A DNA stretch of 27,404 nucleotides from a virus: the IMG/VR virus record IMGVR_UViG_3300042305_000998, positions 1 through 27,404 of that record; one strand, written 5' to 3'. Of the stretch, positions 8,091 to 25,251 are shown in pieces; within the stretch, counting starts at the first letter, position 1; every line of letters begins with the position of its first letter. The position numbers and the translations under genes are program-made. The notes below the pieces were generated by a model that ran no database searches, was not told the DNA's origin, and was given only the letters and a program-made list of their open reading frames with translations.

Positions 8091-8735
8091 TCACTCGTCA
8101 CTCAATAGCCCGTAGGCTATGCCCCCGCCCATGACTCCTCCTGCGCCCATCAGTCCTCCGACGATCTCTGGGTTCTCTTGGAGTGCCTTGCGGAGAACGA
8201 CTTGCGGGGATTCTGCGGCGAGTCGGGAAAGGAGGTCGTCGTTCAGTGGGAGTTTGAATACGGCCGGGAGTTGGTCGTAGACCTCGGGGTTCTGTCGGCC
8301 GCTCTCCAGGATCGCTCGGGCATTGGCCAGTCGGCGTTCCTGGCGGGCGGCTGATGCGTCATGCGGATACGGACGAGGAGGATCATTCGGGACGCGAACT
8401 GATACTCGCTTCACTCCGCCGCGTGGAGGGACGGAGACGTAATCGGCAATGCCCTTCCCAGTCGCATCCGGGATGTCACCGTAGATGTTGGGGACGGACT
8501 GCTCAAATCCGCGTTGGCGGGTGACGTAGCGATAGCCCTTCCCATAACGCTCTGCTTCTGAGCGGGCCCATTCACTGGGGAGTGGGGTGGTGTCTACTTC
8601 CGCACCACGGCGGGCCATCATCATGGCTTCCATGGCAGACTCAGGGGCTGCACGGGGCAGGCCGGCGAGGATGTCGTCGGCTACCCACGGAACGAGACCG
8701 GAGACATCTGCGACGTAGCGGGTTGGGTTGGGCAT
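8091..8735 (-). CDS. Hypothetical protein with Gly-rich hydrophobic C-terminus
   Basis: A 214-residue protein of unknown family. The middle is charged and proline-containing (VPNDPPRPYPHD), and the C-terminal 25 residues hold a glycine-rich hydrophobic segment, GGLMGAGGVMGGGIAYGLL. That segment could insert in a membrane, as in ejected internal virion proteins. Its start overlaps the upstream gene as TAATG, so it forms a coupled set with the next two genes. A virion or DNA-ejection role is inferred from position and the membrane-active-looking tail. Confidence 0.65.
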   Translation of the reverse strand: MPNPTRYVADVSGLVPWVADDILAGLPRAAPESAMEAMMMARRGAEVDTTPLPSEWARSEAERYGKGYRYVTRQRGFEQSVPNIYGDIPDATGKGIADYVSVPPRGGVKRVSVRVPNDPPRPYPHDASAARQERRLANARAILESGRQNPEVYDQLPAVFKLPLNDDLLSRLAAESPQVVLRKALQENPEIVGGLMGAGGVMGGGIAYGLLSDE

Positions 8736-11821: not shown

Positions 11822-12283
11822 TCACTGTCCCTTTTTGCGGGCATTGCGAATGGCTTTTCTCACCAGGATCTTTCCCGCCATGCGAAGGAAGGGAAGTTTC
11901 CTCTTCGTCGCCTCTTCCTGGAGCCAGTCGCAGATGGTCTCTAAGTTCTTTTCGCACCAGCCGGGTTCATTGAACTCATTGGCATCCATGAGCTTGGCAC
12001 GGGTGTTACATGAACAGCCGGGAGAGGCGACGATACCGACACGCTTCAGGAGAGCTTTGAGTTCTGTGCCTGGGCCGTGACCGGGCGATGGTGTTTCGTC
12101 TGGCTTGCGCCTGACAACAGCCTTGGGTTGTGGGCCCCGATACTTCTTCACCAGGAGGCTATAAGACTCTTGCGAGAGGGTTACTTTGTCTCCATCCACC
12201 TGGGCGTGAGACAGGACATCCTCCAGATATCCGGCCGGGCGGGAGAGGGCGGTCTTGGAGAGTGATTGAAGTGATAGGATCAT
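11822..12283 (-). CDS. Conserved phage protein with GCSCNxRA motif
   Basis: A 153-residue protein. The C-terminal half contains GPGTELKALLKRVGI, PGCSCNTRAKLMD, PGWCEKNLETICDWLQEEA and a basic LVRKAIRNARKK end. This GCxCxxRAxxMD...WCxxNxxxIxxWLxEEA layout is a conserved phage domain of unknown role that I recognise from virion regions. The three conserved Cys could bind a metal. ATG 12283 overlaps the stop of the Cys-rich gene as ATGA and is preferred over upstream in-frame starts, which read through the Cys-rich gene out of frame. Confidence 0.75.
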   Translation of the reverse strand: MILSLQSLSKTALSRPAGYLEDVLSHAQVDGDKVTLSQESYSLLVKKYRGPQPKAVVRRKPDETPSPGHGPGTELKALLKRVGIVASPGCSCNTRAKLMDANEFNEPGWCEKNLETICDWLQEEATKRKLPFLRMAGKILVRKAIRNARKKGQ

Positions 12284-13044
12284 GGGTTTTGGAATTCCGG
12301 GCAGTCGCAGTACGTCGCCGCGCAGTAGATGCCATCGGGGCAACAAATGTAGTTGGGTTCTGGGCAGCAGCCGTTCACATCTGCGCCCGGGCAGCACGTT
12401 TCAATCGCTGGATCGCACTGAACCGGGCAATCCTCCTCGGGAAGCGGTGCGCATGTCTCGCACACCTCTGGATAGCAGACGCCGTCCAGGCAGCACTCGC
12501 CCGCCGGGCAGTCCTCGCTGGTCGTACACTCTCCGCACGGCTCATCTTGGCATTGACCGTTACAGCACACGAACGGGTCAGTGGTGCATCCCCCGCATCC
12601 CTCTGGCAACCCGGTGTCAATGTACGCTAAGGCTTCCGCCAGTGTTGCGAATATCATTGGGAACGGGTTTGGATCTGGCTCTGGGTCGCATGAGCAGGTC
12701 AACACAACGGACTCGCAGTCCTCGTCCGTCTCGCACCCATCACACGGGTCATCCTGACACACCCCGTCACAGCAGTACTGGCCTTCGTTGCAACAGACCT
12801 GGGACTCACCAGTACCACAGCATTCCTGGGTGGGTGGGCAACATTCCTCCCCGCAGCAGAGGTCACCTTCTGGACAGCACTCCTGGCCAGAGCCCACACC
12901 ACAGCAGACGCGGGGATCCTCGCAGCACTCCTTGGACCCAGAGGGCCCGCAGCAGACATCGGGCTCCTTGCAACAGGTGGACGGGGAACCGCAGCATTCG
13001 CCCGGCGGGGTGCCATTCTCACAGCAGCACTTGCAGCAGGCCAT
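12280..13044 (-). CDS. Extremely cysteine-rich protein (57 Cys in 254 residues)
   Basis: A 254-residue protein in which about 22% of residues are Cys, in 18 CC doublets or triplets spaced 5-9 residues apart (GECCGSPSTCCKEPDVCC and so on) over residues 1-95. A linker with few Cys (about 115-150) is followed by a second Cys-rich lobe at 150-254 with CCNGQC and CCLDGVC units. The pattern is granulin- or EGF-like and implies stacked disulfides outside the cell or metal binding inside. It is acidic, with no transmembrane segment or clear signal peptide. It is the first gene of the leftward virion operon, so it is a candidate adhesion or surface protein. Start ATG 13044 has a weak AAAGGG upstream. 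Confidence 0.75.
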   Translation of the reverse strand: MACCKCCCENGTPPGECCGSPSTCCKEPDVCCGPSGSKECCEDPRVCCGVGSGQECCPEGDLCCGEECCPPTQECCGTGESQVCCNEGQYCCDGVCQDDPCDGCETDEDCESVVLTCSCDPEPDPNPFPMIFATLAEALAYIDTGLPEGCGGCTTDPFVCCNGQCQDEPCGECTTSEDCPAGECCLDGVCYPEVCETCAPLPEEDCPVQCDPAIETCCPGADVNGCCPEPNYICCPDGIYCAATYCDCPEFQNP

Positions 13045-14426: not shown

Positions 14427-14432
14427 CCCCTA

Positions 14433-14469
14433 GCGAAAAATATTTTTCGCCGTTCCAATGTTCCCGCCA
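14433..14469. repeat. Palindrome plus CCAATGTTCCCGCCA, copy 1
   Basis: A perfect 18-bp palindrome GCGAAAAATATTTTTCGC (14433-14450), then four bases, then the 15-mer CCAATGTTCCCGCCA (14455-14469). The same composite occurs again 137 bases to the right. It could be an operator or an origin-like element. On the minus strand it can also be read as a short peptide frame. Confidence 0.65.
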
Positions 14470-14569
14470 TATATGTTGCCAATTCATTCCCGCCCGGTTC
14501 AACCCGGACGGAATGAAACAATCGACCGCGAATTGTCGCACAGGTCTGGCGAGTGAACATATGCGGCGA

Positions 14570-14606
14570 GCGGAAAATTCTTCCGCCCGTCCCAATGTTC
14601 CCGCCA
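14570..14606. repeat. Palindrome plus CCAATGTTCCCGCCA, copy 2
   Basis: A near-palindrome GCGGAAAATTCTTCCGC (14570-14586), then five bases, then the identical 15-mer at 14592-14606. Similarity to copy 1 continues for about 20 bases beyond the 15-mer. Confidence 0.65.
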
Positions 14607-14680
14607 GTAATGTTGCGACGATTTCATGCGGGAAGGAAACGTATTACTTCCTGCGCATGCGGGCAGCCAATGGAGGTACG

Positions 14681-15116: not shown

Positions 15117-15508
15117 CGGGATTCGATCCCGGGCAGTGGCAGCCCTTATGGGTTATTCCGTGTTGCTGCCCGGGTTCGGCTGCCGTTTCGGTGGGTAGCC
15201 GTCGCCTCTGCCTGTGCCTGGGAGTAATTACCTGGGACGAAAGCAGCGTGGACGGCTTCCTGTGGTCCGTAACAGGGTTGCCACACGGGCAATAGGGGTG
15301 GATCGTCAATGCCCCGCCCGCCGTTTCTACGGTGTCCGAATAGCCCCCTCTGGGCTGACATCAAAACGCATCCGATCAGCAAGGTGCGTAGTTCGCGGAA
15401 GATGGTACACGCGGCGGGTTCCCTGTCGCATTCCATGCCGCCGTGGTGCCAGTAGGGGGCTATTCGGCTGCCGTTCGGTAGTCGGTTTCTCAAACGATGA
15501 GGTGCTAC
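15117..15508. other. Structured non-coding interval
   Basis: About 390 bases without a convincing gene on either strand. They contain a 6-bp stem CGGGAT-TCG-ATCCCG right after a stop codon (15118-15132), a CCCGGGCAG/CTGCCCGGG arm pair at about 15130-15174, a direct repeat TTCGGCTGCCGTT at 15175-15187 and 15463-15475, and a 14-bp inverted repeat at 15336-15349/15454-15467. A structured RNA or regulatory leader for the Gp88-like gene is possible. Confidence 0.5.
15336..15467. repeat. 14-bp perfect inverted repeat around 104 bases
   Basis: CCGAATAGCCCCCT (15336-15349) and AGGGGGCTATTCGG (15454-15467) are exact complements. Inside, TGGTACACGCGGC near 15405 and GCCGCCGTGGTGCCA near 15438 form a second imperfect pair, so the transcript could fold into a long branched stem. 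Confidence 0.65.
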
Positions 15509-16393
15509 ATGGGTTACCATGCGGCCCGCATCGTCCAGGATGGCGAAGCAAACGCCAAGATTCGCCACGGGATGCAGGACTATAAGGTCTGCACCGTGTC
15601 GCTGCTGGCGTCCGATGCTTCGGGGTACAACATGTGCCCCAAGGCATACCCCATCACGCGGTTCCGTGAACTGCGTACTGCGGGCTGGACGCTGGAAGCT
15701 ATCCGCGAGGATGCCCAGAGCAAAGACCTAGCGCTCTGCTCTGTGCCCTGTGTCACCTCCCAGTCTGGGCAGGGTGCCATTGGTGATGTGCCCGAGATTC
15801 GGGCCAATCTCACCCGCTGGTACGTGGAGAATCGGGACGAGTTTCGTGCCCATCTTCTGGACGAGTTGCGGGGTTATGTGCGCCGGGCAGGGGATTCGAT
15901 TGTCGCCTGCCGGCCGAATCTGGATTCCGATGCTCCATGGGAGCGGACGATTCCTGAGATGTTCGATCTGCCCATCCAGTACTGGGACTACACCAAGGTC
16001 TCCAAGCGGCTGGGCAAGGTGCCGTCCAACTATCACCTGACCTATTCGGTCAGTGAGGCTACGACGGCGGAAGACTGGCAGCGGGTCTACGACACGGGCA
16101 GTTCAATCTCCGTGGTCTTTGACTCTGCGTGGCAGCCAAGCGGTAAGCGGGAGTATCACCGCTTCGGCCGCATGCCTACGTGGTACACCGACCCCAACGG
16201 GTATCGGTGGCGTGTTGTGGATGGTGACAGGACCGATCTGCGGTTCCTGGATCCTTCCAACGTCTGCGTGGGCCTGCGTCTGAAGGGCCGCAAATGGGAA
16301 CGCTGGTTTGCCCGCTGGTCTGGTTTTGCGGTCAGGCTGCCCCGTGCGTTGCGGGGTGTGTTCGGGAACATTCATCCGGCGAATGCCGCGTGA
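15509..16393 (+). CDS. Gp88-like phage protein
   Basis: A 294-residue protein. Motifs in order: SGYNMCPKA with a conserved Cys, CVTSQSGQGAIG, RANLTRWYVENRDEFRAHLL, ACRPNLDSDAPWE, PIQYWDYTKVSKR, SNYHLTYSVSE and DGDRTDLRFLDPSNVCVGLRLKG. I know this order from Gp88-family (DUF7227-like) phage proteins, in which conserved Cys, Asp and His residues suggest a metal-dependent or radical-type enzyme. The activity is unproven. ATG 15509 is chosen because GAGGTG-CTAC-ATG matches the spacing of the following genes. It is the largest protein in the early block apart from the recombinase. Confidence 0.82.
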   Translation: MGYHAARIVQDGEANAKIRHGMQDYKVCTVSLLASDASGYNMCPKAYPITRFRELRTAGWTLEAIREDAQSKDLALCSVPCVTSQSGQGAIGDVPEIRANLTRWYVENRDEFRAHLLDELRGYVRRAGDSIVACRPNLDSDAPWERTIPEMFDLPIQYWDYTKVSKRLGKVPSNYHLTYSVSEATTAEDWQRVYDTGSSISVVFDSAWQPSGKREYHRFGRMPTWYTDPNGYRWRVVDGDRTDLRFLDPSNVCVGLRLKGRKWERWFARWSGFAVRLPRALRGVFGNIHPANAA

Positions 16394-16401
16394 GGTGTGA
16401 C

Positions 16402-16530
16402 ATGGTCGATGCGTACTACTCCAACGAACTCAAATGCTGGGTGCGTCTGGAGCGTGAGGCGGATGGCGAGTGGTGCCATACGTCTGGATTCTCTACCCGT
16501 GAGGCTGCGATTCGCGGCCGTGAGGTGTGA
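16402..16530 (+). CDS. Microprotein of 42 residues
   Basis: Residues MVDAYYSNELKCWVRLEREA, then HTSGFSTREAAIRGREV. It has the small beta-plus-helix look of phage proteins with an FxTREEA-type segment. It begins in the 13-mer GAGGTGTGACATG and ends in the next copy, so its last two residues Glu-Val are the ribosome site of the next gene. Function unknown. Confidence 0.65.
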   Translation: MVDAYYSNELKCWVRLEREADGEWCHTSGFSTREAAIRGREV

Positions 16531-16531
16531 C

Positions 16532-16684
16532 ATGACACTGCGAGAACTGATTGCACAAATCCATACCGTACTCCCGGGTGCCTACTTCTGGCAGGACAAC
16601 GACGGCGAGTTGTGCATTGCGACCCGGTTCGTGTACCCGGTCGGAGAAGACGCGCCTATGGAGCCCTTTAGCGAGGAGGTGTGA
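16532..16684 (+). CDS. Microprotein of the EDNDGQLxIYT type
   Basis: A 50-residue protein: LRELIAQIHTVLPGAYFWQDNDGELCIATRFVY. It resembles a known small phage type with a 'D(N/D)xGQ(I/L)xIYT' strand, and the 68-residue protein at 21439 is a probable paralogue. Both flanking junctions are exact GAGGTGTGACATG copies. Function unknown. Confidence 0.65.
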   Translation: MTLRELIAQIHTVLPGAYFWQDNDGELCIATRFVYPVGEDAPMEPFSEEV

Positions 16685-16685
16685 C

Positions 16686-16898
16686 ATGAGCGATGGGTTA
16701 GACAGATGGGCAGTACTTTATCGGGCTGCCGACTCTCCGCCTGCCGATCCGCCGGAGGCTTTCCTTTGCTGGGCAGAGGATGGCGACCACGCCGACGAGC
16801 AGTGCCGGAACGCTTACCCGGGCTGCGAGGTGTTGTGGTCTTACCTAGGTGATGCTGACGATGCGTACCGAGAGTACTACGACAACCCGGAGGTGTGA
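16686..16898 (+). CDS. Acidic microprotein of 70 residues
   Basis: An acidic protein with CWAEDGDHADEQCRNAYPGCEVLW in the middle and DDAYREYYDNPEV at the end. It has three Cys. Function unknown. It lies between two exact GAGGTGTGACATG junctions. Confidence 0.63.
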   Translation: MSDGLDRWAVLYRAADSPPADPPEAFLCWAEDGDHADEQCRNAYPGCEVLWSYLGDADDAYREYYDNPEV

Positions 16899-16899
16899 C

Positions 16900-17235
16900 A
16901 TGGCAGATACAACCTACAACGGCTGGACCAACTACGAAACGTGGCTGGTCAACCTGTGGATGGATAACGAGCAGGGCTCGCAGGAATACTTCCGTGAGCA
17001 GGCCCGCAGAATCTACGGATTTGCAACGGCCGACCCGGGCGGGTGGTTCACGCGGGAAGAGACAGCCCGCTTTCGGTTTGCGGACTGGCTGAATGAACAC
17101 CATGAGGAGAACCGTCCAGAGATGCCCGCATGCGGCGTGTACTACGACCTGTTATCAGGTGCCCTGTCTGAAGTGAACTGGAATGAGATTGCCCGTCATT
17201 ACATCGAAGCCATAGAGGAGGAGGCTAATGCCTGA
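16900..17235 (+). CDS. YNGWTNYETW-family phage protein
   Basis: A 111-residue protein. YNGWTNYETWLVNLWMDNE at residues 5-23 is the hallmark of a widespread small phage family (often named DUF7249-like), followed by helices and LLSGALSEVNWNEIARHYIE. The family's function is not known; it is common in early or accessory regions of many phages. ATG 16900 is set by the preceding GAGGTG-TGA-C. Confidence 0.8.
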   Translation: MADTTYNGWTNYETWLVNLWMDNEQGSQEYFREQARRIYGFATADPGGWFTREETARFRFADWLNEHHEENRPEMPACGVYYDLLSGALSEVNWNEIARHYIEAIEEEANA

Positions 17236-17407
17236 CATGCAATGCCCCGTCTGCGATTGTTGCGAGGTGTCGTTTGCCGGTGTTCTCGGTGACGTAGGTC
17301 ATGCGAGATGCCGGGACTGTGGGATTGTTTACACGTTTGACCCGTCATTGGAGGACGAGTGCTATGTGGGCAGTACGGACACGGAAGAGGATTGTGGCGA
17401 CGTTTGA
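17228..17407 (+). CDS. Zinc-ribbon microprotein A
   Basis: A 59-residue protein. CPVCDCC (residues 6-12) and CRDCG (28-32) form a four-cysteine zinc ribbon; the C-terminus is very acidic. It overlaps the previous stop by 8 bases with GGAGG upstream; an ATG at 17237 is the alternative start. A transcription or RNA-polymerase modulator is possible from the fold, but no target is known. Confidence 0.65.
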   Translation: MPDMQCPVCDCCEVSFAGVLGDVGHARCRDCGIVYTFDPSLEDECYVGSTDTEEDCGDV

Positions 17408-17492
17408 TGAGCGATGGGAGGCGGAAGAATGGATGCGGACTTGGCGTTCCATCCACGGACACAAGTGTTTCCTAGTGCGAACGGAGAATTGA
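17364..17492 (+). CDS. Microprotein of 42 residues in a nested frame
   Basis: MWAVRTRKRIVATFDERWEAEEW, then KCFLVRTEN. Shape and residues fit a small phage beta-alpha-beta protein. It overlaps the zinc-ribbon gene by 44 bases in another frame. The ribosome site is weak (GAGGACGAG). Confidence 0.55.
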   Translation: MWAVRTRKRIVATFDERWEAEEWMRTWRSIHGHKCFLVRTEN

Positions 17493-17493
17493 T

Positions 17494-17664
17494 ATGGCTG
17501 CCCGCAAGTGGGCCAAGTGCTGCGAGTGCGGCGGCGAGGTGTGGTTCGATGCGTGGGCCGACCTGGAGGGAGACATTGCCGGTGGCCCGTACGACAACAA
17601 CAAATGCTCCGAATGCGAAGAGGAGGACGTTGACTATGTCGAAGTTGAAGAAGACGACGAGTAA
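17494..17664 (+). CDS. Zinc-ribbon microprotein B
   Basis: A 56-residue protein. CCECGG (residues 9-14) and CSECE (38-42), with GPYDNNKCSEC between and an acidic tail DYVEVEEDDE. This CxCGG...GPYxNNKCxxC pattern is a small phage zinc-ribbon type I recognise. The previous stop is one base before the start. Probably metal-binding; role unknown. Confidence 0.7.
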   Translation: MAARKWAKCCECGGEVWFDAWADLEGDIAGGPYDNNKCSECEEEDVDYVEVEEDDE

Positions 17665-17866
17665 GCGCGTGATCGTCCACGTTTCTGGAGGCATGGCGTC
17701 TTGCGTGTCTGATCCGGGCGTGGATTGTCTGGTGCTGGACTGGGATGCAATGTGTGACGGCAATGCACCGCCGACGATGGAGGATATTCGCGTGTGGCGT
17801 GACCAGTATCGCGGACTGTTAGACGGACAAGATGTGGATCGATTGGAAATCCTTGCAGGAGAATGA
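17636..17866 (+). CDS. Small beta-rich phage protein (VSGGMAxCVxDP type)
   Basis: A 76-residue protein. RVIVHVSGGMASCVSDPG and DCLVLDWDAMCDG resemble a small conserved phage family with a strand-turn-strand core and a DWD motif. AGGAGG lies upstream of ATG 17636. It overlaps the zinc-ribbon gene by 29 bases. Function unknown. Confidence 0.7.
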   Translation: MSKLKKTTSKRVIVHVSGGMASCVSDPGVDCLVLDWDAMCDGNAPPTMEDIRVWRDQYRGLLDGQDVDRLEILAGE

Positions 17867-17867
17867 C

Positions 17868-18053
17868 ATGACCGCACATGACTGCATCGCCTGCGAGCGG
17901 CTGCTGCTGCGGGCGAAAGAGTTGATTGATGAGGCTCTGTGGCAGCACATCTATGACGAGAGCAACGGCGAGCGACCGGATAAGAACTGCGAGTACTCGC
18001 AGTGGCTGAATGACTGTGATCGATTCCTATTAGGCGAGGAGGCTACGACATGA
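17868..18053 (+). CDS. Small hypothetical protein
   Basis: A 61-residue helical, acidic protein: MTAHDCIACERLLLRAKELIDEAL and ending LGEEATT. No family recognised. It starts one base after the previous stop, with GGAG six bases upstream, and its end overlaps the next start as ATGA. Confidence 0.65.
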   Translation: MTAHDCIACERLLLRAKELIDEALWQHIYDESNGERPDKNCEYSQWLNDCDRFLLGEEATT

Positions 18054-18268
18054 GCTTTCGACCGATGGTGAAGGTGGGCAATGAGTGGGCTGGCAATGGC
18101 GTCCGGTTTGCCACCCGTGAAGAGGCTGAGTCTTCCGCCCGTGATCTGTACGGACGGTGGACGCTGTGTGTAGATCACCGGGCAGATGAGTCCGATGATC
18201 CGGTAAACTGTGAGTGGGATTCAACCCGTGGCAATGTGCATTTGGAGGTGGCCAATGTCGATGGTTGA
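18050..18268 (+). CDS. Small phage protein (FATREEAExxARDL type)
   Basis: A 72-residue protein. KVGNEWAGNGVRFATREEAESSARDLYGRW is a common small phage module with a strand, then helix. Another 30 residues follow with PVNCEWD. Function unknown. ATGA overlap with its predecessor. Confidence 0.7.
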   Translation: MSFRPMVKVGNEWAGNGVRFATREEAESSARDLYGRWTLCVDHRADESDDPVNCEWDSTRGNVHLEVANVDG

Positions 18269-18560
18269 GAACGCCGAGGACATCTGCTTGGGGGACTGGG
18301 TGCGAGATCAGTACGGGCGTATCGGCCGCGTGACGGAGAAGCATTACATCTGCCCACAAGATGAGCAGTGGCTGTCCATGCAGGCGATACCCGTCACGCC
18401 CGAGCAGATGAATGAGCCGTGGTGCAGCGTGCTGGTTCACAACAGCGGTGCTGTTGTCCAGCCGATCAGCACCCTCTGCACACTAGACAATCATCCAGAA
18501 TCTTTGAACAACCCTTGGACTAGCTTCTACTTTCGGGAGACAGCCAATGCCCGCGATTGA
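18255..18560 (+). CDS. SH3-like small phage protein
   Basis: A 101-residue protein. LGDWVRDQYGRIGRVTEKH at the N-terminus looks like a KOW/SH3-type barrel start, then QWLSMQAIPVTPEQMNEPWCSVLVHNSGAV. I recognise this as a small conserved phage protein without known role. GGAGGTG four bases before ATG 18255 supports the start inside the previous gene's last codons. Confidence 0.7.
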   Translation: MSMVENAEDICLGDWVRDQYGRIGRVTEKHYICPQDEQWLSMQAIPVTPEQMNEPWCSVLVHNSGAVVQPISTLCTLDNHPESLNNPWTSFYFRETANARD

Positions 18561-18813
18561 CATCTCAAACACCGAGGCCGTGGCTATCGACACGGCATGC
18601 ATGACCCTCATGGAGACCGTGCGGCGAGGGCGCAAGAAGCAGGAGGCATACATTGAAGAGGACAACGATCCCGATGGGGCCGCGTCCTTGGAGGACGGAC
18701 TTTCTGACCTCCTCCAGGCCATGCGCGCGCTTCGCCTCCTGCTGGAGCGGGCGGGATGGACCAGCGAGATGATCGGTCATGCCTATAAGGAGAATGCCAA
18801 TGCCCAAGATTGA
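18547..18813 (+). CDS. Small helical protein starting MPAID
   Basis: An 88-residue, all-helical and charged protein (METVRRGRKKQEAYIEEDN, then LSDLLQAMRALRLLLERAG). Its start is embedded in the last codons of the previous gene, in GCCAATGCCCGCGATTGA. The same arrangement, two bases different, ends this gene and starts the next. Confidence 0.65.
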   Translation: MPAIDISNTEAVAIDTACMTLMETVRRGRKKQEAYIEEDNDPDGAASLEDGLSDLLQAMRALRLLLERAGWTSEMIGHAYKENANAQD

Positions 18814-18997
18814 TTGGACTGCTGACCAAGGCGAGGAGGTGCGGCAGTTGCTTCTGAATCAAATTGATTTCCTGCAAGAGAGAAAGGCAACGTGGGTTTC
18901 CGGCGGTGCTATCGGCCCAGCAGCAAGCGACTCGTACCTCATCCAAGACTTGCGTGACATCCTTTCTAAACTGGAGGCTGCATATGCCAACCATTGA
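18800..18997 (+). CDS. Small helical-hairpin protein, paralogue 1
   Basis: A 65-residue protein, MPKIDWTADQGEEVRQLL and ending LRDILSKLEAAYANH. It belongs with small phage proteins having an 'xLTxEEAexLxxxL...LxxLLxxL' two-helix layout. The adjacent gene starts MPTIELTDEQAEEL and is a likely paralogue. Function unknown. Confidence 0.65.
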   Translation: MPKIDWTADQGEEVRQLLLNQIDFLQERKATWVSGGAIGPAASDSYLIQDLRDILSKLEAAYANH

Positions 18998-19163
18998 ACT
19001 GACCGACGAGCAGGCCGAGGAGTTGAAGGATGTGGTAACCGATAAGATGGGCGTTCTTGCCCGCAAGATTGACTTTCGGTGGAACATTGGGGACGAGGCG
19101 CTGGAACTCAAGCACATTCGTTCTGTCCTGTCCGACATCCTTCACCTACTGGAGATTGCGTGA
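18984..19163 (+). CDS. Small helical-hairpin protein, paralogue 2
   Basis: A 59-residue protein, MPTIELTDEQAEELKDVV, a KIDFRW centre and the helix IRSVLSDILHLLE. Same plan as the preceding protein. GGAGG precedes ATG 18984, and the stop overlaps the next start as TGATG. Confidence 0.68.
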   Translation: MPTIELTDEQAEELKDVVTDKMGVLARKIDFRWNIGDEALELKHIRSVLSDILHLLEIA

Positions 19164-19288
19164 TGACTGACCTAACCGTGATCGACAAGGGCAACCACTG
19201 CGAGATTCACCAAGGCGATGCGATTGCCGCAGACTATGTGGCCAGCAAACGTCTGGCCACTCTGTTCGCCGCCTCCCCTGAGTTGTTG
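19163..19288 (+). repeat. 126-base imperfect direct repeat, copy 1
   Basis: The 5' ends of PELL genes 1 and 6 (here and 20847-20972) differ at only about a dozen positions, roughly half of them silent. A recent duplication or gene conversion is likely. Confidence 0.75.
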
Positions 19289-19399
19289 TACCAGCTGAAG
19301 CATGCCATCCGCCTGCTCGTTGACGCTGGATATCCGGAGACGTATGAGCGGTGGCAGGAGTTCGACATGGCTGTGAACATGGCAGAAGGGAGAGAGTGA
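19163..19399 (+). CDS. PELL-family protein 1
   Basis: A 78-residue member of the small phage family with a core 'A(A/S)PELLxxL...' helix and a final AEGRE. Its first 42 residues differ at only four positions from the gene at 20847, so one copied the other recently. TGATG overlap at both ends. Function of the family is unknown. Confidence 0.72.
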   Translation: MTDLTVIDKGNHCEIHQGDAIAADYVASKRLATLFAASPELLYQLKHAIRLLVDAGYPETYERWQEFDMAVNMAEGRE

Positions 19400-19412
19400 T
19401 GGCACATACACC
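19382..19412 (+). repeat. 31-base exact direct repeat, copy 1
   Basis: The junction from GCAGAAGGGAGAGAG through the start codon into the MAHTP codons is identical to 20240-20270, 858 bases (286 codons) away. Recombination between the copies would delete PELL proteins 2-4 precisely and in frame. Confidence 0.85.
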
Positions 19413-19662
19413 TGGACCATGGATCGTGCGCGAGCCGGAAGAGGATGAACTGTACGAGGTGTACGCGGAGAACGGCGGCGATCTTATTTGCTACCCGGTC
19501 TACACTCGCAACCAGCGGGACAACATTCACCTCATCGCCGCAGCCCCGGAATTGCTGGAGTTGGTGCGGACTGCCCGTGTGATTGTGGAATCCGCCGGTC
19601 ACATGGATTTGTCAGTTCGCATGTGGAATGCAATCGCCAACGCAGAAGGAGCTACCGAATGA
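19399..19662 (+). CDS. PELL-family protein 2 (MAHTPGPW start)
   Basis: An 87-residue protein. MAHTPGPW at the N-terminus, a variable beta region, then HLIAAAPELLELV and a final ANAEGATE. The family is very common in phages and prophages and has no known function. The start shares an exact 31-base stretch with the gene at 20257. Confidence 0.75.
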   Translation: MAHTPGPWIVREPEEDELYEVYAENGGDLICYPVYTRNQRDNIHLIAAAPELLELVRTARVIVESAGHMDLSVRMWNAIANAEGATE

Positions 19663-19982
19663 GTTGCACACCTGGACCGTGGTCTGTGATGCCCACCCCG
19701 ACCGACGTGCAGCACACCCACAAGATCATGTACGACTGTGTGCAGGAGCGCCGCAGGATCGGTGCCGTGTGCGGCGTGTTCGCAAAGGATGACGGCGAGG
19801 CGACTGACAACGCCCGTCTCATCGCCGCTGCCCCCGAGTTGCTGATGTCGCTTCGTGCGGCGCTCAACGAACTGATTGAGTTGTACGAGGAGGCGTATCC
19901 AGACGATGAGTCTGACAACGACACCACCGTCGCAATCGACGCAGGATTGGCGGCGATTGCCAAAGCAGAAGGGAGCGAGTGA
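19659..19982 (+). CDS. PELL-family protein 3
   Basis: A 107-residue protein: MSCTPGPWSV, NARLIAAAPELLMSLRAAL and a final AAIAKAEGSE. It has an acidic insert in its C-terminal part. ATGA overlap with the gene before, TGATG with the next. Confidence 0.75.
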   Translation: MSCTPGPWSVMPTPTDVQHTHKIMYDCVQERRRIGAVCGVFAKDDGEATDNARLIAAAPELLMSLRAALNELIELYEEAYPDDESDNDTTVAIDAGLAAIAKAEGSE

Positions 19983-20257
19983 TGCGTCATACAGATGGAC
20001 CCTGGTGGGCCTGTCCCCCAGACGAAGACAGCGAAAACTGGGAGATCGAAGACGGGTACGGTCACACAGCAACCGTCTACGGCGACGATGAGCCGGCGGC
20101 AGCCAATGCCCGGCTGATGGCGGCTGCCCCGGAGTTGCTGGCTGCACTGCGGGAACTTGTCCACTATGACGAAGGCAGTAGTGAGCAGGGGTCGTACGGA
20201 TACGAAGTTCTGAGTCGATGCAAGGCAGCCATTGCCAAAGCAGAAGGGAGAGAGTGA
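19982..20257 (+). CDS. PELL-family protein 4
   Basis: A 91-residue protein: MRHTDGPWW, a D/E-rich segment, then ANARLMAAAPELLAALREL and a final AAIAKAEGRE. TGATG overlaps at both ends; an in-frame GTG one codon earlier is less likely. Confidence 0.75.
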   Translation: MRHTDGPWWACPPDEDSENWEIEDGYGHTATVYGDDEPAAANARLMAAAPELLAALRELVHYDEGSSEQGSYGYEVLSRCKAAIAKAEGRE

Positions 20258-20270
20258 TGGCACATACACC
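20240..20270 (+). repeat. 31-base exact direct repeat, copy 2
   Basis: Exact copy of 19382-19412. The 5' part (ATTGCCAAAGCAGAAGGGAG) also occurs at 20485 exactly and at 19956, which diverges by one base further into the junction. Confidence 0.85.
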
Positions 20271-20511
20271 CGGGCCCTGGGCTTGGAGATGGAGCCAGCC
20301 GCTGAACACGCTTGTGATTGAGGCCGGCGACGGATACATCGCCCGCAATATCAGCAACGACAATGCCCGCCTCATCGCCGCTGCCCCTGAATTGCTGGCT
20401 GCATCCCGGCTGGCAAACCAAGAACTGATTGACCTGGGTGTCGGCAGCAGTGGGTCGCCTGCGTTGGTGGCACTGTGGGCTGCGATTGCCAAAGCAGAAG
20501 GGAGAGAGTGA
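20257..20511 (+). CDS. PELL-family protein 5 (MAHTPGPW start)
   Basis: An 84-residue protein: MAHTPGPWAW, NARLIAAAPELLAASRLA and a final AAIAKAEGRE. Its start lies in the second copy of the 31-base repeat. The C-terminal Ala-Glu-Gly-Arg-Glu codons are also the purine-rich ribosome site for the next gene. Confidence 0.75.
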   Translation: MAHTPGPWAWRWSQPLNTLVIEAGDGYIARNISNDNARLIAAAPELLAASRLANQELIDLGVGSSGSPALVALWAAIAKAEGRE

Positions 20512-20843
20512 TGTTCTATTGGGACGAGGATCGTTACCCCATTGGTGAAGGCGAGCAGCCCACCCGGTGGGGAGTTGTAATGCTGGACGACACGTATACT
20601 CTGGGGCCCGTATACAAGCTGGCCATCTACGAGATGCGTGAGATTCCTGGTGTCGGCAAGCGGCCGGTTGCCATGCTCGTTTGCCGGGGGTTCTGTGAGT
20701 TGAGTTGCACCCCTGCGGCTGCCGTAGAGCGGGCTGAACAGTGGCGCCGCAAAGAGTTTGCTGATGACGGTGGCGTTGAGTTCCGATGGGTCGGTGCGTT
20801 GCGCTGGTCTGACCCGAATCGACCTGTGAAGAAAGGAGTCTGA
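20511..20843 (+). CDS. Hypothetical protein inside the PELL array
   Basis: A 110-residue protein that lacks the PELL core: MFYWDEDRYPIGEGEQPTRW, a strand-rich middle and CTPAAAVERAEQWRRKEFAD. It starts at the same type of junction as the PELL genes, as if a different cassette had been placed in the array. No family recognised. Confidence 0.65.
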   Translation: MFYWDEDRYPIGEGEQPTRWGVVMLDDTYTLGPVYKLAIYEMREIPGVGKRPVAMLVCRGFCELSCTPAAAVERAEQWRRKEFADDGGVEFRWVGALRWSDPNRPVKKGV

Positions 20844-20846
20844 GCG

Positions 20847-20972
20847 ATGACTGACCTGACCGTGATCGACAAGGGCGACCACTGCGAGATTCACCAGGGT
20901 GATGCGATTGCCGCAGACTATGTGGCCAGCACACGTCTGGCCAATCTGTTCGCCGCTGCCCCCGAGTTGCTG
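20847..20972 (+). repeat. 126-base imperfect direct repeat, copy 2
   Basis: Second copy of 19163-19288. The copies diverge sharply after the PELL codons. Confidence 0.75.
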
Positions 20973-21137
20973 GCTGCCTTGCAGTCGTTCATCGCTCTTA
21001 GTGATGACGGCTCTCTGCATATCGACGGCAGCCCGGCTACGGAAGACCCCGCACTCACTGCTGCCCGTGCAGCCATAGCCAAGGCCGAAGGTATCACCAC
21101 GGAGGTAGATGATGGCAAGGAGCGATCATTGGACTGA
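20847..21137 (+). CDS. PELL-family protein 6
   Basis: A 96-residue protein. Its first 42 residues are nearly those of PELL protein 1; it then has AAPELLAALQSF and ARAAIAKAEG followed by a 14-residue acidic and charged tail. The tail overlaps the next gene by 26 bases, which may show where a cassette joined. Confidence 0.72.
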   Translation: MTDLTVIDKGDHCEIHQGDAIAADYVASTRLANLFAAAPELLAALQSFIALSDDGSLHIDGSPATEDPALTAARAAIAKAEGITTEVDDGKERSLD

Positions 21138-21249
21138 CGAGACAGTGGACAAGGCCATCCGCCTGCTTGTGCTGGCGGAGGATGCTGTGAAGGACACCGA
21201 GCCTGACCTGTACCAACAGATCAGGCTTTTTCTTTTGGAGGAAGCATGA
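21112..21249 (+). CDS. Microprotein of 45 residues
   Basis: A helical protein: MARSDHWTDETVDKAIRLLVL and ending LFLLEEA. GGAGGT five bases before ATG 21112. It overlaps PELL gene 6 by 26 bases and the next gene as ATGA. No family recognised. Confidence 0.6.
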   Translation: MARSDHWTDETVDKAIRLLVLAEDAVKDTEPDLYQQIRLFLLEEA

Positions 21250-21446
21250 AAAGTACGCTGCGAATGAATGGATCTGTGCGGTTTACGCGCGATGAGGCTG
21301 CTGCCTTGGTCAGTGCGGCAGCTATTGCCCTTCAGCATGACGAGCCCCCAGAGGAAGTGAGGCAGCCGCTGGCCGATGCACTAGCCAAACTGGACAACCT
21401 TTTCAAATTCGGGATTCGCGAAAGCCTGGAGGATCTCAATGCCTGA
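21246..21446 (+). CDS. Small hypothetical protein
   Basis: A 66-residue protein: strand-like RMNGSVRFTRDEAAALVSAA, then helix LADALAKLDNLFKF. GGAGG four bases upstream. No family recognised. Confidence 0.63.
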   Translation: MKSTLRMNGSVRFTRDEAAALVSAAAIALQHDEPPEEVRQPLADALAKLDNLFKFGIRESLEDLNA

Positions 21447-21645
21447 GTTCGACGGGACCACTGAGCAGTTCGCCCGCATCGTACGGGAGATGTTCCCCAC
21501 ATGCCGAATCTGTGAGGACGATGAGGGGCAGATCGTCATCTACACCGGAGCCGCTATGCAAATGGGCGGTGAGGTTGTATCATGGTTGCCTGATGATGAG
21601 GATGTGTACCAATCGTGGTGCGATAGAAACCCGGAGGTGATGTGA
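21439..21645 (+). CDS. EDDEGQIVIYT-type small protein
   Basis: A 68-residue protein: FARIVREMFPTCRICEDDEGQIVIYTGAAMQMGGEV. It belongs to the same small phage type as the 50-residue protein at 16532, with a helix followed by a paired strand. Function unknown. It starts in the last codons of its predecessor. Confidence 0.7.
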   Translation: MPEFDGTTEQFARIVREMFPTCRICEDDEGQIVIYTGAAMQMGGEVVSWLPDDEDVYQSWCDRNPEVM

Positions 21646-21965
21646 TGAGCCTCAGTGCATCCGAAGCGTTCGACTTGTTGGAGATTGGACGCTGCGATCA
21701 TGGCGGCAACCAATGGGTAGTGTTTACTGACGGCGCCTACCGGCACGTTGTTGGTGCGAGCCACTTCGATTCCTGCGGGCGCTCTGCCCGTGAGACGGAC
21801 GAGGAACACCGCGCCGATGACTACGGCGAGTGGTGCAGCCGTGGTGTGTGGGCCAACGATTTCGTGGCGGGGGAGGTTGCCGCGTTGTGTGACCTTGCGT
21901 TTGTGCATTCCGCAACGAGCGGTGGGTGTGGTCGTATCGATGCAAAGGAGGTGACCGATGGTTGA
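21645..21965 (+). CDS. Cys/His-containing hypothetical protein
   Basis: A 106-residue protein with CDHGGNQWVVFTDG, DSCGRSARETDEEHRADDYGEWCSRGVW and a Cys-containing end. Four Cys and several His residues could bind metal, but no known motif fits. ATG 21645 is preferred to the GTG one codon earlier. Confidence 0.65.
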   Translation: MSLSASEAFDLLEIGRCDHGGNQWVVFTDGAYRHVVGASHFDSCGRSARETDEEHRADDYGEWCSRGVWANDFVAGEVAALCDLAFVHSATSGGCGRIDAKEVTDG

Positions 21966-22182
21966 CGCATGGCTAGTGCGTGGCTACCAGCTTCCATGGG
22001 AGCATGCTCCGCTGTGGTCTGCGGCCAATCAACGTGCGTTGGGTTCCCGCCGGCTGCGGCCGTACCTGGACATCATCATGGCCGATGGATACGGGAGCGC
22101 GCCTGATCACCTGCGGTGGGTGATCCGTGGCAAGGTCAGTGAGATTGAATCCTGGGCAAAGGAGATAGCCGATGAGCGTTGA
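21958..22182 (+). CDS. Small hypothetical protein
   Basis: A 74-residue protein rich in Trp, Arg and Leu (LPWEHAPLWSAANQRALGSRRLRPYLDIIM). GGAGGT lies just upstream and the start overlaps the previous gene by 8 bases. No family recognised. Confidence 0.63.
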   Translation: MVDAWLVRGYQLPWEHAPLWSAANQRALGSRRLRPYLDIIMADGYGSAPDHLRWVIRGKVSEIESWAKEIADER

Positions 22183-22453
22183 GTCCGTCCGTGCCGATAT
22201 CAATGCCGCCATTCAGCGGCTACGCCTGGAGGGATGCGTCCCCACCATGCGGAGTGCGTTGCTTCTGTGGCAGCAGTACCTAGTGGAGACCCAGCCGAAT
22301 GGGTTGTCCACCAACGACAGGAATGAGTACGCCCAGGAACACAAGCGGGTGACGTTCCTGTTGTCTGAAATCTTCCCGCCTGATGAGGACGACATTGAGG
22401 CTGAGTTATTGCGTCAGCATGTGGCAAAAGAACTGGAGGTGCGTGATGGCTAA
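22172..22453 (+). CDS. Small helical hypothetical protein
   Basis: A 93-residue protein, almost all helix (SVRADINAAIQRLRLEG, then RSALLLWQQYLVE). Acidic, with no Cys beyond one. It overlaps both neighbours. No family recognised. Confidence 0.63.
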   Translation: MSVESVRADINAAIQRLRLEGCVPTMRSALLLWQQYLVETQPNGLSTNDRNEYAQEHKRVTFLLSEIFPPDEDDIEAELLRQHVAKELEVRDG

Positions 22454-22682
22454 GAAACGTGCAAGGAAAATCACCGCAGAGGCGTTCATTGACGCCGTCA
22501 TGCGGCATCGGGACGGGATGATTCAGGACATTGCCGATGAGCTGGGTGTCACCCAGCAGGCAGTGAGCAAGCGACTGCGTGAGTACAAGGAACGTGGAGT
22601 CACGGGTCTCCCCGTATTCAACGGCCGGGTGGTGGATGTGGATGACGTTCAGAAGATGGTCAATAAATACAGGGGGAAGTGA
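22446..22682 (+). CDS. Small helix-turn-helix DNA-binding protein
   Basis: A 78-residue basic protein. Residues 25-50 read MIQDIADELGVTQQAVSKRL, a standard helix-turn-helix of the kind found in MarR-, Lrp- and phage Cro-like proteins, followed by RERGVTGLP-like residues. It is the only clear transcription-factor-like protein in the block and a candidate for control of the divergent region at 14.4 kb. GGAGGTG precedes ATG 22446. Confidence 0.78.
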   Translation: MAKKRARKITAEAFIDAVMRHRDGMIQDIADELGVTQQAVSKRLREYKERGVTGLPVFNGRVVDVDDVQKMVNKYRGK

Positions 22683-23038
22683 TGGGAGACGATGTTCGCG
22701 AGCGTGCCTATGACAGCGAGTTCTTTGTGGAGAATGCCGATCAGATCCGTGACGCCCGGTTGCTAGCCAATGCCATTGCCGACATGGAATGTGCTACTCA
22801 CAACGGCACACCGCATGAGGTACGGCTGGCGTGGTTGCAGTTCTACGACATCGCCGGGCCAGTGCTGACTGGCAAGTTCATTGCGTCCGGTGCGTGGCAG
22901 GACTACTGCCCCGAGATCGATGACGAGACCGACACCGACTCACGCGCCACCCTGTGGACGGACGGCGAGAAGCGTGTCGTTTCCACGCTGCGGTTTACCC
23001 ACGATACACCGTGCGACATGACGTTCACGGTTGAATAG
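22682..23038 (+). CDS. Hypothetical acidic protein
   Basis: A 118-residue acidic protein with the middle segment YDIAGPVLTGKFIASGAWQDYCPEIDDETDTD and a beta-rich C-terminus. No family recognised. TGATG overlap with the HTH gene, so the two are likely co-translated. Confidence 0.65.
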   Translation: MGDDVRERAYDSEFFVENADQIRDARLLANAIADMECATHNGTPHEVRLAWLQFYDIAGPVLTGKFIASGAWQDYCPEIDDETDTDSRATLWTDGEKRVVSTLRFTHDTPCDMTFTVE

Positions 23039-23157: not shown

Positions 23158-23228
23158 GCGAGATGGCTGACTTCTGCGTTGGTTCCTTGGTTGTTCTTGC
23201 CTTCCTCTGGTGGAGTTCCCTGTCGTGA
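23154..23228 (+). CDS. Single-pass membrane peptide of 24 residues
   Basis: MSEMADFCVGSLVVLAFLWW, with an SSLS end, is one short hydrophobic helix. It overlaps the previous gene as ATGA and the recombinase start as GTGA, so all three are probably coupled. At this length the coding call is tentative. Confidence 0.45.
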   Translation: MSEMADFCVGSLVVLAFLWWSSLS

Positions 23229-23983
23229 AACTGTATCTCTATGGCCGTGTCTCAACGGACGATCAGCAGACATCGGCCGACGCCCAGTCGGTCAGGCTGC
23301 GTGAGTTCGCTGAGAAGTCTGGCCTGGAGATTGGCGGGGTGTTTGTGGACGAGGATGTCTCTGGCAAGATCCCCCTCCAAGAGCGACCCAAGGGGAAGGA
23401 GTTGTGGAATCTCATCCAGCCTGGGGATGCCATCGCATTCACCAAGGTGGATAGATGTTTCCGATCCCTGGTAGATGCTGCCTCCACCCTGGAGAAGTGG
23501 AAGACTCTCGGCATCCGGGTCCACATCCTGGACTTAGGGATCGATGTGAACACGCCGGCTGGAGAGTTGTTCTTCTCCCAGCTTGCAGCCTTCGCACAGT
23601 TTGAGCGGGCCATGATCGGCCTGCGTGTGCGTGAGGCCCAGGCACACAAGCGGCGCACCGGCAAGCCGTACAACAAGACGCGCCCCATCGGCTGGCGTAG
23701 GCAGGGTGACTGCTATGTGCCCCTGCATTCCGAGCGGAGGCTGGCCGAGCGTGTCATCGCTTGGCGCGACCGTGGCGAGAGCCTGCCCCGGATTGCTTTG
23801 CGCCTGTGCAAGGAGAACATCCGGAGCGCTGACGGCTCTTGGCTTCGCCCCTCCCATGTCCGGCGGCTGGAGATCGCGGCGCGAGCCGGATATCCAAGGA
23901 TTGCGAGACGGTCCTTGCAAGCCTCTGTGCAGACATGCTCGCCACACGGATCGGGATCTGATGTTCCTCCGACAGAGACCTGA
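23225..23983 (+). CDS. Serine recombinase (resolvase/invertase family)
   Basis: A 252-residue protein. YGRVSTDDQ at residues 6-14 carries the nucleophile Ser10 and Arg8. KVDRCFRSLVDA (74-85) and AQFERAMIGLRVREA (124-138) give the conserved Arg and helix E region. Residues 145-226 form a small DNA-binding domain (PIGWRR, RRLAERVIAWRDRG, WLRPSHVRRL). It lacks the large zinc and coiled-coil domains of big phage integrases, so a resolvase- or invertase-like or simple integration role is likely. GTG 23225 is set by the GTGA overlap. Residues after 226 lie antisense to sigma region 4 and look passive. Confidence 0.9.
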   Translation: MKLYLYGRVSTDDQQTSADAQSVRLREFAEKSGLEIGGVFVDEDVSGKIPLQERPKGKELWNLIQPGDAIAFTKVDRCFRSLVDAASTLEKWKTLGIRVHILDLGIDVNTPAGELFFSQLAAFAQFERAMIGLRVREAQAHKRRTGKPYNKTRPIGWRRQGDCYVPLHSERRLAERVIAWRDRGESLPRIALRLCKENIRSADGSWLRPSHVRRLEIAARAGYPRIARRSLQASVQTCSPHGSGSDVPPTET

Positions 23984-25021: not shown

Positions 25022-25251
25022 TTGCCCCCCTCGCATCCTGCCTGCTTGCACTTGCATGTATCTGGACATGGACACTTCGTCTTGTGTCCATCACCGTGCG
25101 TGATGACGCCGGACTTGCATTGGCCGCAGCATTCCTTCGCCGCCACCGGAGCCTTCTGTGTGGCGATCACGTACGCTGCCTCCGCTGCGACCGACCCGGT
25201 GTAGTCGGGCGTGCCCCAGAACGACGCGAGGATGAGGAACAACTTACTCAT
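25003..25251 (-). CDS. Small Cys-rich protein
   Basis: An 82-residue protein. The N-terminus is hydrophobic (MSKLFLILASFWG) but not a classical signal peptide. The last 42 residues are CCGQCKSG, ITHGDGHKTKCPCPDTCKCKQAGCEGGKCAPKK: eleven Cys in 42 residues, with a THGDGH segment. I recognise this G(K/V)ITHGDGHxTxCPCP plan as a small phage family of unknown role. Zinc or disulfide binding is likely. Starts in an 8-base overlap with the protease gene. Confidence 0.7.
   Translation of the reverse strand: MSKLFLILASFWGTPDYTGSVAAEAAYVIATQKAPVAAKECCGQCKSGVITHGDGHKTKCPCPDTCKCKQAGCEGGKCAPKK

Follow-up and report, generated by a model that had tools for sequence, protein, structure and literature searches.

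A recurrent 13-base stop/start joint bordering exchanged single-gene cassettes in a viral small-gene array

The leader gene and the 13-base joints

The IMG/VR virus record IMGVR_UViG_3300042305_000998, examined over its positions 1 to 27,404 (this whole stretch of 27,404 nucleotides is referred to below as the window), holds a leader gene followed on the + strand by an array of small genes, the first four of which begin at identical copies of a 13-base joint, GAGGTGTGACATG (the 13-mer). Leader gene B (P0005, 294 amino acids (aa); Pfam PF17338, 'Gene product 88') occupies 15509..16393, with 15509 taken as its start in preference to an alternative in-frame ATG at 15497, and is the fixed gene ahead of the cassette array. 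Behind it lie the microgenes P0001 (42 aa, family F6, 16402..16530), P0002 (50 aa, family F57, 16532..16684) and P0003 (70 aa, family F54, 16686..16898), and then P0004 (111 aa, 16900..17235). When P0001 to P0004 were compared with Pfam and PHROGs, only P0004 matched, to DUF7249 (PF23907) and to phrog_871, whose function is unknown; P0001, P0002 and P0003 had no match in either collection at E 0.01.

The original prediction placed the 13-mer at 16392, 16522, 16676 and 16890. Exact copies are indeed found at 16392..16404, 16522..16534, 16676..16688 and 16890..16902, all on the + strand, and nowhere else in the 27,404 bases of the window on either strand; in 100 dinucleotide shuffles of the window the maximum exact count was 0. 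The ATG that ends each copy begins an open reading frame (ORF), at 16402, 16532, 16686 and 16900, of 42, 50, 70 and 111 aa, respectively. The last three copies read GAG GTG TGA C ATG, that is, the Glu-Val-stop of the left gene, a C and the start of the next gene, with GAGGTG doubling as the Shine-Dalgarno (SD) ribosome site. The proposal that one sequence encodes the end of one protein, its stop, a ribosome site and the following start is thus accurate for the three joints for which it was made: joint 2 closes P0001 with GAG GTG TGA and opens P0002 at 16532, joint 3 links the end of P0002 to the start of P0003, and joint 4 links the end of P0003 to the start of P0004.

Joint 1 is in the other phase. 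Here the leader ends GCG TGA, with the stop at 16391..16393, seven bases earlier than in copies two to four, and the GAGGTG that follows is the SD sequence of the ATG at 16402. The first two bases of the 13-mer thus also belong to the leader stop, and the second TGA does not terminate the leader; the phase of the same 13 bases with respect to the left gene is therefore of two kinds. Allowing up to two mismatches added two sites in the window, GAGGTGCTACATG at 15499 (+) and GAGGTGATACATG at 2492 (-), each with the start ATG of some larger ORF at its end (that of the leader, at 15509, and one at 2494 on the - strand), so that a GAGGTG four bases before the ATG is evidently used by other starts of this phage, with spacers other than TGAC. 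At up to three mismatches the window had 12 sites, not above the shuffles (mean 9.3).

The next cassette (56 aa, family F1, 17237..17407, +) stands behind a different joint, AATGCCTGACATG, unlike its relative in locus L005, which sits behind the 13-mer. The remaining small-gene array (17408..23038, +) contains many genes whose stop and start overlap in joints that differ in sequence, and the exact 13-mer is absent from this interval. Part of it (19399..20511) consists of tandem small genes with a common RLIAAAPELL-like motif, whose start joints (AAGGGAGAGAGTGATG type) are almost the same; this second series with a repeated joint apparently arose by gene duplication.

Related arrays and cassette exchange

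Relatives were drawn from viral contigs in two ways. A search with P0004 (DUF7249) gave at least 558 related stretches, the best 80 of which served as the locus set; the exact 13-mer occurs in 11 of these 80 loci and in 11 of the 46 records that were searched whole (L005-L050). An alignment of leader A, a second leader gene whose BLASTP comparison with leader B (E 2.5) gives no support for homology, was then used as a query and found 33 viral contigs; its ten sequences all came from loci holding the 13-mer, and the 13-mer itself was not used in the scan. The resulting array set of 40 contigs comprises these 33, five with leader B (the window, L117 and L118-L120), and L005 and L026, in which no leader was located. 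Their 562 proteins were grouped into 182 families, 99 of which have two or more members. Family F0 lumps DUF7249 and RLIAAAPELL proteins, which makes F0 counts unreliable, and F0 was omitted as a flank in the table of insertions and deletions (indels). For statistics we dropped the near-duplicates L130, L140 and L149, leaving 37 contigs; L141 and L142 were retained despite their similarity to L136 and L138. Genes were called with our own caller, which missed one 13-mer start, with an 83-aa ORF, at L132:6697.

In the 37 contigs the 13-mer opens 57 of 525 called genes, belonging to 30 right families and lying behind 25 left neighbours in 48 combinations, and another 29 starts are one base off. 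A Pfam scan of 10 of these 30 families gave no match. Counting outward from the leader, the 13-mer was present at 21/37, 14/37, 6/37, 7/34, 5/33, 3/33, 0/31 and 1/30 of the first eight starts, and at 0/253 beyond the eighth. By our gene calls the TGA of the joint is the stop of the left gene in 31 of the 57 cases, the left stop lying at the start of the joint in 21 and further off in 5, so the retention of TGAC cannot be due solely to its use as a stop.

The 40 loci contain 63 copies, all on the array strand (63 +, 0 -): 60 coincide with called starts, a further copy begins an 83-aa ORF, another runs past the edge of its locus and the last precedes only five codons. In this last copy, at L128:6796 (the same contig as L116, where it is at 8654), a stop follows the five codons; the homologous gene elsewhere encodes about 60 aa, which indicates a frameshifted copy or a sequencing error. 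In whole records, 57 sites (a set distinct from the 57 starts above) lie in 27 records with a located leader, between -8 and +1989 nucleotides (nt) from the leader stop; six more, in the records of L005, L026 and L117, were outside this distance measurement and bring the sum to 63 sites in 30 of the 40 records.

The same leader stands before different genes in different phages. Leader B (identity 94-96% in L118-L120) is followed, via the identical 13-mer, by three different families in four contigs (the window, L118, L119 and L120), and its end precedes three different genes in the window, L006 and L034. The end of leader A precedes four different genes in L007, L017, L022 and L032 and, across 30 contigs (three duplicates removed), 17 different families. 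At the leader A stop of the 33 contigs the exact 13-mer is found in 16, a form one base off in 5 and a more distant sequence in 12; in L131, one of these 12, an exact 13-mer opens the first called gene slightly further on. We also observed that leader A of L126 is fused directly to the 13-mer and ends LQ-EV*, in place of LQA* followed by the 13-mer; here the same joint has changed phase on the same leader.

Gene orders behind the leaders are strongly reshuffled. The family of P0001 (F6) occurs behind leader A, leader B, F54, F36 and others, and is itself followed by several families; P0001 has 10 copies in the 37-contig set, with 6 different left neighbours, and 8 of the 10 stand behind the exact 13-mer. 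The family of P0003 lies ahead of that of P0001 in L134 and L155 and behind it in the window. Vertical inheritance of whole arrays, which we considered, conflicts with these orders. Related, uncultured bacterial viruses with different genes between the same joints make the genes look like swappable cassettes, and the reordered or missing microgenes that had been suggested as a check on the idea are present. The measured 13-mer sites, rather than being common at unrelated starts where no genes are swapped, all lie in the array that follows the leader, and swapping is extensive.

Direct comparisons map the exchange to the joints. Homology between the window and L118 covers 15319..16404 (91%), stopping with the final base of joint 1, and resumes inside joint 4, at 16891 (76%), so that the interval of the microgenes singled out in the original prediction is the block that differs. 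The P0001 cassette including both 13-mers matches L132, where it stands behind the other leader, at 139 of 143 bases, with flanks matching at 17/60 and 13/60. For P0003 taken together with its left 13-mer, 199 of 214 bases agree with L134 (flanks 12/60 and 14/60), and the BLAST match of this cassette to L134 (93%) covers 16676..16902, beginning exactly at the first base of joint 3 and running from 13-mer to 13-mer to the base. P0002 has a match in L137, at 91% nucleotide identity over 162 bases.

Array homology was compared in six pairs (window/L118, L129/L132, L134/L155, L132/L120, L131/L134 and L144/L147). Between L129 and L132 a block bounded by two 13-mers is replaced, homology ending at most 5 nt from them; homology between L132 and L120 begins at a 13-mer in both; one block shared by L131 and L134 begins at most 2 nt from a 13-mer; and L144 and L147 differ by an insertion behind a non-13-mer joint. 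Over the set as a whole, 87 pairs with the same left and different right genes at the 13-mer had identities of 0.82-0.90 upstream, 1.0 in the joint by pair selection and at most 0.34 from the second codon on, and 20 pairs with the same right and different left genes gave the mirror-image pattern; the pairs were selected by identity thresholds on both sides, and the levels outside the joint therefore partly follow from selection. Of the homology ends, 301 of 439 on the right and 249 of 358 on the left fell between -15 and +8 of a start codon (550/797 in total, versus 82/797 for random positions), and 52 right and 31 left ends fell at 13-mers (83/797 versus 9/797). The commonest right end was the G of ATG (112/439). 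Insertions flanked by the joint were found as well: leaderA-F54-F6 has the 13-mer twice where leaderA-F6 has it once, and the joint of the empty site recurs on both sides of F49 (AGATTGCGTGATG) and of F94 (AGGACGAGTGATG). At the level of sequence comparison, exchange of cassettes between related phages is thereby established.

Candidate causes of the exchange

We favour, with a probability of roughly 0.6, the following account. The 13-mer is a dual-purpose joint, combining the stop of the left gene (often with a Glu-Val C-terminus) with the SD sequence and start codon of the next, and bounds one-gene cassettes, which would be exchanged by short-identity recombination. The cassettes of this hypervariable array start directly behind the conserved leader; comparison shows that relatives keep the leader and often the joint, and that the microgenes between joints have been exchanged, inserted or lost, and reordered, most homology beginning and ending at the joints. 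A joint-bounded cassette could be placed before any other and still be translated, and the joint would be kept and would spread with its cassettes. Exchange would take place while the phage replicates, through recombination that uses the 13-17 bp of identity in the joint together with any flanking homology. Its agent would most probably be the phage's own Erf-like single-strand annealing protein together with a RecE-like exonuclease, and selection for intact overlapping genes would then retain the clean products.

Right genes found behind different left genes speak for this account. In 40 such events at the first six positions the joint was identical in 8, compared with a shuffled mean of 2.97 (49 of 2000 shuffles reached 8), and of the 16 events involving at least one 13-mer, 13 were within one mismatch. 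As for the agent, the Erf-like annealing protein is a candidate on the basis of gene content: in one relative of 59.6 kb (L156-L158), genes for an ERF-family annealing protein and a serine recombinase occur together with helicase pieces, and an exonuclease VIII-like ORF adjoins the ERF gene in L157. ERF was found in 21 of 39 group records other than the 27-kb record of the window, namely 21 of the 22 of at least 44 kb and none of the 17 shorter ones. According to a passage of PMC3945230, the Erf of phage D3 equals Redβ in efficiency, both when the DNA is identical and when it is diverged.

A number of observations weigh against this account. Joints were non-identical in 32 of the 40 same-right events, and the L118 joint corresponding to joint 4 is AAGGTGTGACATG, one base off. 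Gene matches to P0001 in nine contigs extend to the right joint in 4 and end inside the gene in 5, and a homology end between L134 and L155 likewise falls inside a gene. Swaps are about as sharp at non-13-mer joints (237 and 250 pairs), and turnover behind the same left gene shows no clear excess, being 0.72 at the 13-mer and 0.70 at other joints at positions 1-5, and 0.95 and 0.87 at position 0. Both joints equalled the joint of the empty site in 12 of 157 indel comparisons, or 3 of 75 distinct cases, one of them with the 13-mer; 30 of the 157 keep the left joint alone and 5 the right alone. The joint travels mainly with the left gene, the match in -10..-1 being 0.90 for the same left gene, 0.60 for the same right gene and 0.42 for unrelated pairs. 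Finally, the minimal pairing lengths quoted in PMC3945230 (23-27 bp for Redβ and 31-34 bp for RecA) exceed the 13-17 bp of the joint, implying that exchange over it would be rare per infection or aided by flanking homology. The prediction that identical joints let microgenes be swapped as cassettes consequently divides in two: the swapping is seen in relatives, whereas identity of the 13-mer is a putative driver of it.

Random (illegitimate) recombination followed by selection is a possible alternative to which we give less credence. Breaks would fall at any place, the sole survivors would be products whose overlapping genes are intact, and the joint would be the 3' end of the left gene, inherited as the ribosome site of whichever gene comes next. 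The similar breaks at ATG of non-13-mer joints, the equal turnover at positions 1-5, the excess of indels that keep the left joint alone over those that keep the right alone, and a 13-mer below the quoted pairing lengths all suit this explanation. So does the linkage of joints to left genes, as for GAGGTGGTCAATG, whose 12 instances involve 2 left versus 8 right families, and the stop-to-start distance that is often constant for a left family across many right genes (8 nt in 22 of 30 cases for leader A). By itself, however, random recombination leaves unexplained why one exact 13-mer stands behind 25 left families in two main phases, why TGAC is retained where it is not a stop, and why right genes that follow different left genes still have the 13-mer or a version of it with one mismatch.

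More doubtful is a leader-anchored gene-capture platform. The 3' end of the fixed leader would present a ready-made ribosome site and a start, at which new one-gene cassettes bearing the same joint on either side would be inserted by short-homology annealing, giving an integron-like accumulation of microgenes without a dedicated integrase.

It is unlikely that the 13-mer is primarily a regulatory sequence, bound by a protein or RNA in the manner of start-associated sequences (SAS) or stoperators and coordinating the leader-proximal genes, with swapping as a by-product. The conserved spacer bases, the restriction of all copies to one strand and their clustering at most 2 kb from the leader would fit such a role, and a similar argument, from bases without rRNA pairing, is made for the SAS of cluster K phages in part of PMC3203893. 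Many leader-proximal starts nevertheless have other joints, as at the leader A stop, where 16 of 33 contigs have the exact 13-mer. The 61 of 63 copies that are called starts or open the 83-aa ORF further suggest that the sites go with starts and are not free-lying.

Convergence, in which GAGGTG-TGA-C-ATG would be the best overlap of stop, SD sequence and start and would have originated many times independently, is disfavoured and very improbable. Other starts in the window do use GAGGTG, and TGA-N-ATG starts favour C without a preceding GAGGTG too (38/46; outside the exact 13-mer, 38/54). Start-site models nonetheless predict far fewer than the 57 copies observed: 0.6 with a position-weight model (0.1 if built without the 13-mer) and 8.3 with a first-order model (1.7 if built without it). 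The TGA is not the left stop in 26 of the 57, and the 13-mer is absent from 35 of the 46 DUF7249-bearing records searched whole. Misjoining of metagenome contigs at a repeated 13-mer is hardly credible: although the viral sequences are IMG/VR contigs, mostly metagenomic by name, the shared cassettes differ by a few percent (those of P0001 and P0003 above), the same breaks occur at many other joints, and the usual assembly k-mers are longer than 13-17 bp.

Known systems, host hints and neighbouring features

Passages of PMC3233612 and PMC3029335 set out two models of phage mosaicism, recombination targeted at boundary sequences and random recombination with selection. Why mosaic boundaries fall between genes is a long-standing question. 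With a recurrent exact joint, swapped cassettes and an annealing protein, and with non-13-mer joints as built-in controls, these arrays make the two models directly comparable. The joint itself suggests a portable translational element for stacking small genes.

Short conserved boundary (linker) sequences have been proposed for lambdoid and some other phages, as cited in parts of PMC3233612, PMC3029335 and PMC4546147, the last of which, where it treats long repeat regions between modules, mentions linker sequences. In those systems, as here, a short identical sequence stands between unrelated neighbouring genes, the modules differ among relatives and homologous recombination is the proposed use of the sequence. 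In the present arrays one short sequence recurs at the module boundaries of several genomes (57 joints, 48 distinct pairs) and homology breaks at it, with some breaks inside genes. The arrays differ in that the boundary is itself translated or translational, with stop, ribosome site and start in 13 bp, and is tandemly repeated, and in that each module is one small gene (42-174 aa across the 30 families).

The SAS of cluster K mycobacteriophages, as described in part of PMC3203893, are likewise asymmetric 13-bp sequences with an SD core that occur at many starts of different families, sometimes with the upstream stop inside, and the authors suggest there that such repeats could be recombination targets. 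The 13-mer is also a 13-bp start-associated repeat with an SD sequence at the starts of different families. The same passages give the SAS sequence as GGGATAGGAGCCC (versus GAGGTGTGACATG here), place it immediately upstream of the start and report extended inverted repeats at about half of the sites; the 13-mer, by contrast, extends through the ATG, occurs within a single array only in the records that were measured, and has cassette exchange mapped to it. Homology breaks precisely at start codons have been described for Gumball and Troll4 in a passage of PMC3233612, there in one segment of cluster D genomes, whereas here there are hundreds of homology ends and a recurrent identical joint.

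Integron cassette arrays may offer a further analogy, having a fixed leader and variable tandem small genes that vary most next to the leader. The hallmarks of integrons are the tyrosine integrase IntI and attC sites; the joint described here is only 13 bp and the recombinase near the array end is of the serine type, and we do not class the array as an integron. A full-text search of open-licence papers for the letters of the 13-mer gave no match, and none of the open-licence titles listed concerned this phage group.

In a phage collection, window positions 15400..19600 had no nucleotide match and the head protein no protein match, P0004 had one distant match, and P0005 matched 264 records, all below 60% identity, of which 235 were Mycobacterium phages. 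A search of genome contigs with leader A gave no match, though L160 encodes a 69% relative. Relatives of the head protein were found in two contigs of metagenome-assembled genomes (MAGs), L159 and L160 (Pirellulaceae, 82%, and Ignavibacteriales, 79%), which may hint at the host or may be contigs of phage origin that were mis-binned. One copy of the 13-mer is present in the Pirellulaceae MAG, on another contig (8748 bases), and none in the Ignavibacteriales MAG.

Several other features of the window were noted. At the far end of the array lies a serine recombinase-like ORF (23225..23983, +), for which no connection with the joints was found; its relative at L156:10950-11708 has matches to Pfam Resolvase and to an integrase family in PHROGs. 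Further on, at 25244..27403 on the - strand, an ORF matches intein-splicing and LAGLIDADG domains. A pair of 48-nt direct repeats (14432..14479 and 14569..14616, 77%) with hairpin-like heads is located between the mainly - strand genes and the + strand genes. A very cysteine-rich ORF (MACCKCCCENGTPPGECC...) at 12280..13044 on the - strand resembles, by eye, an ORF at L156:3509-3928.

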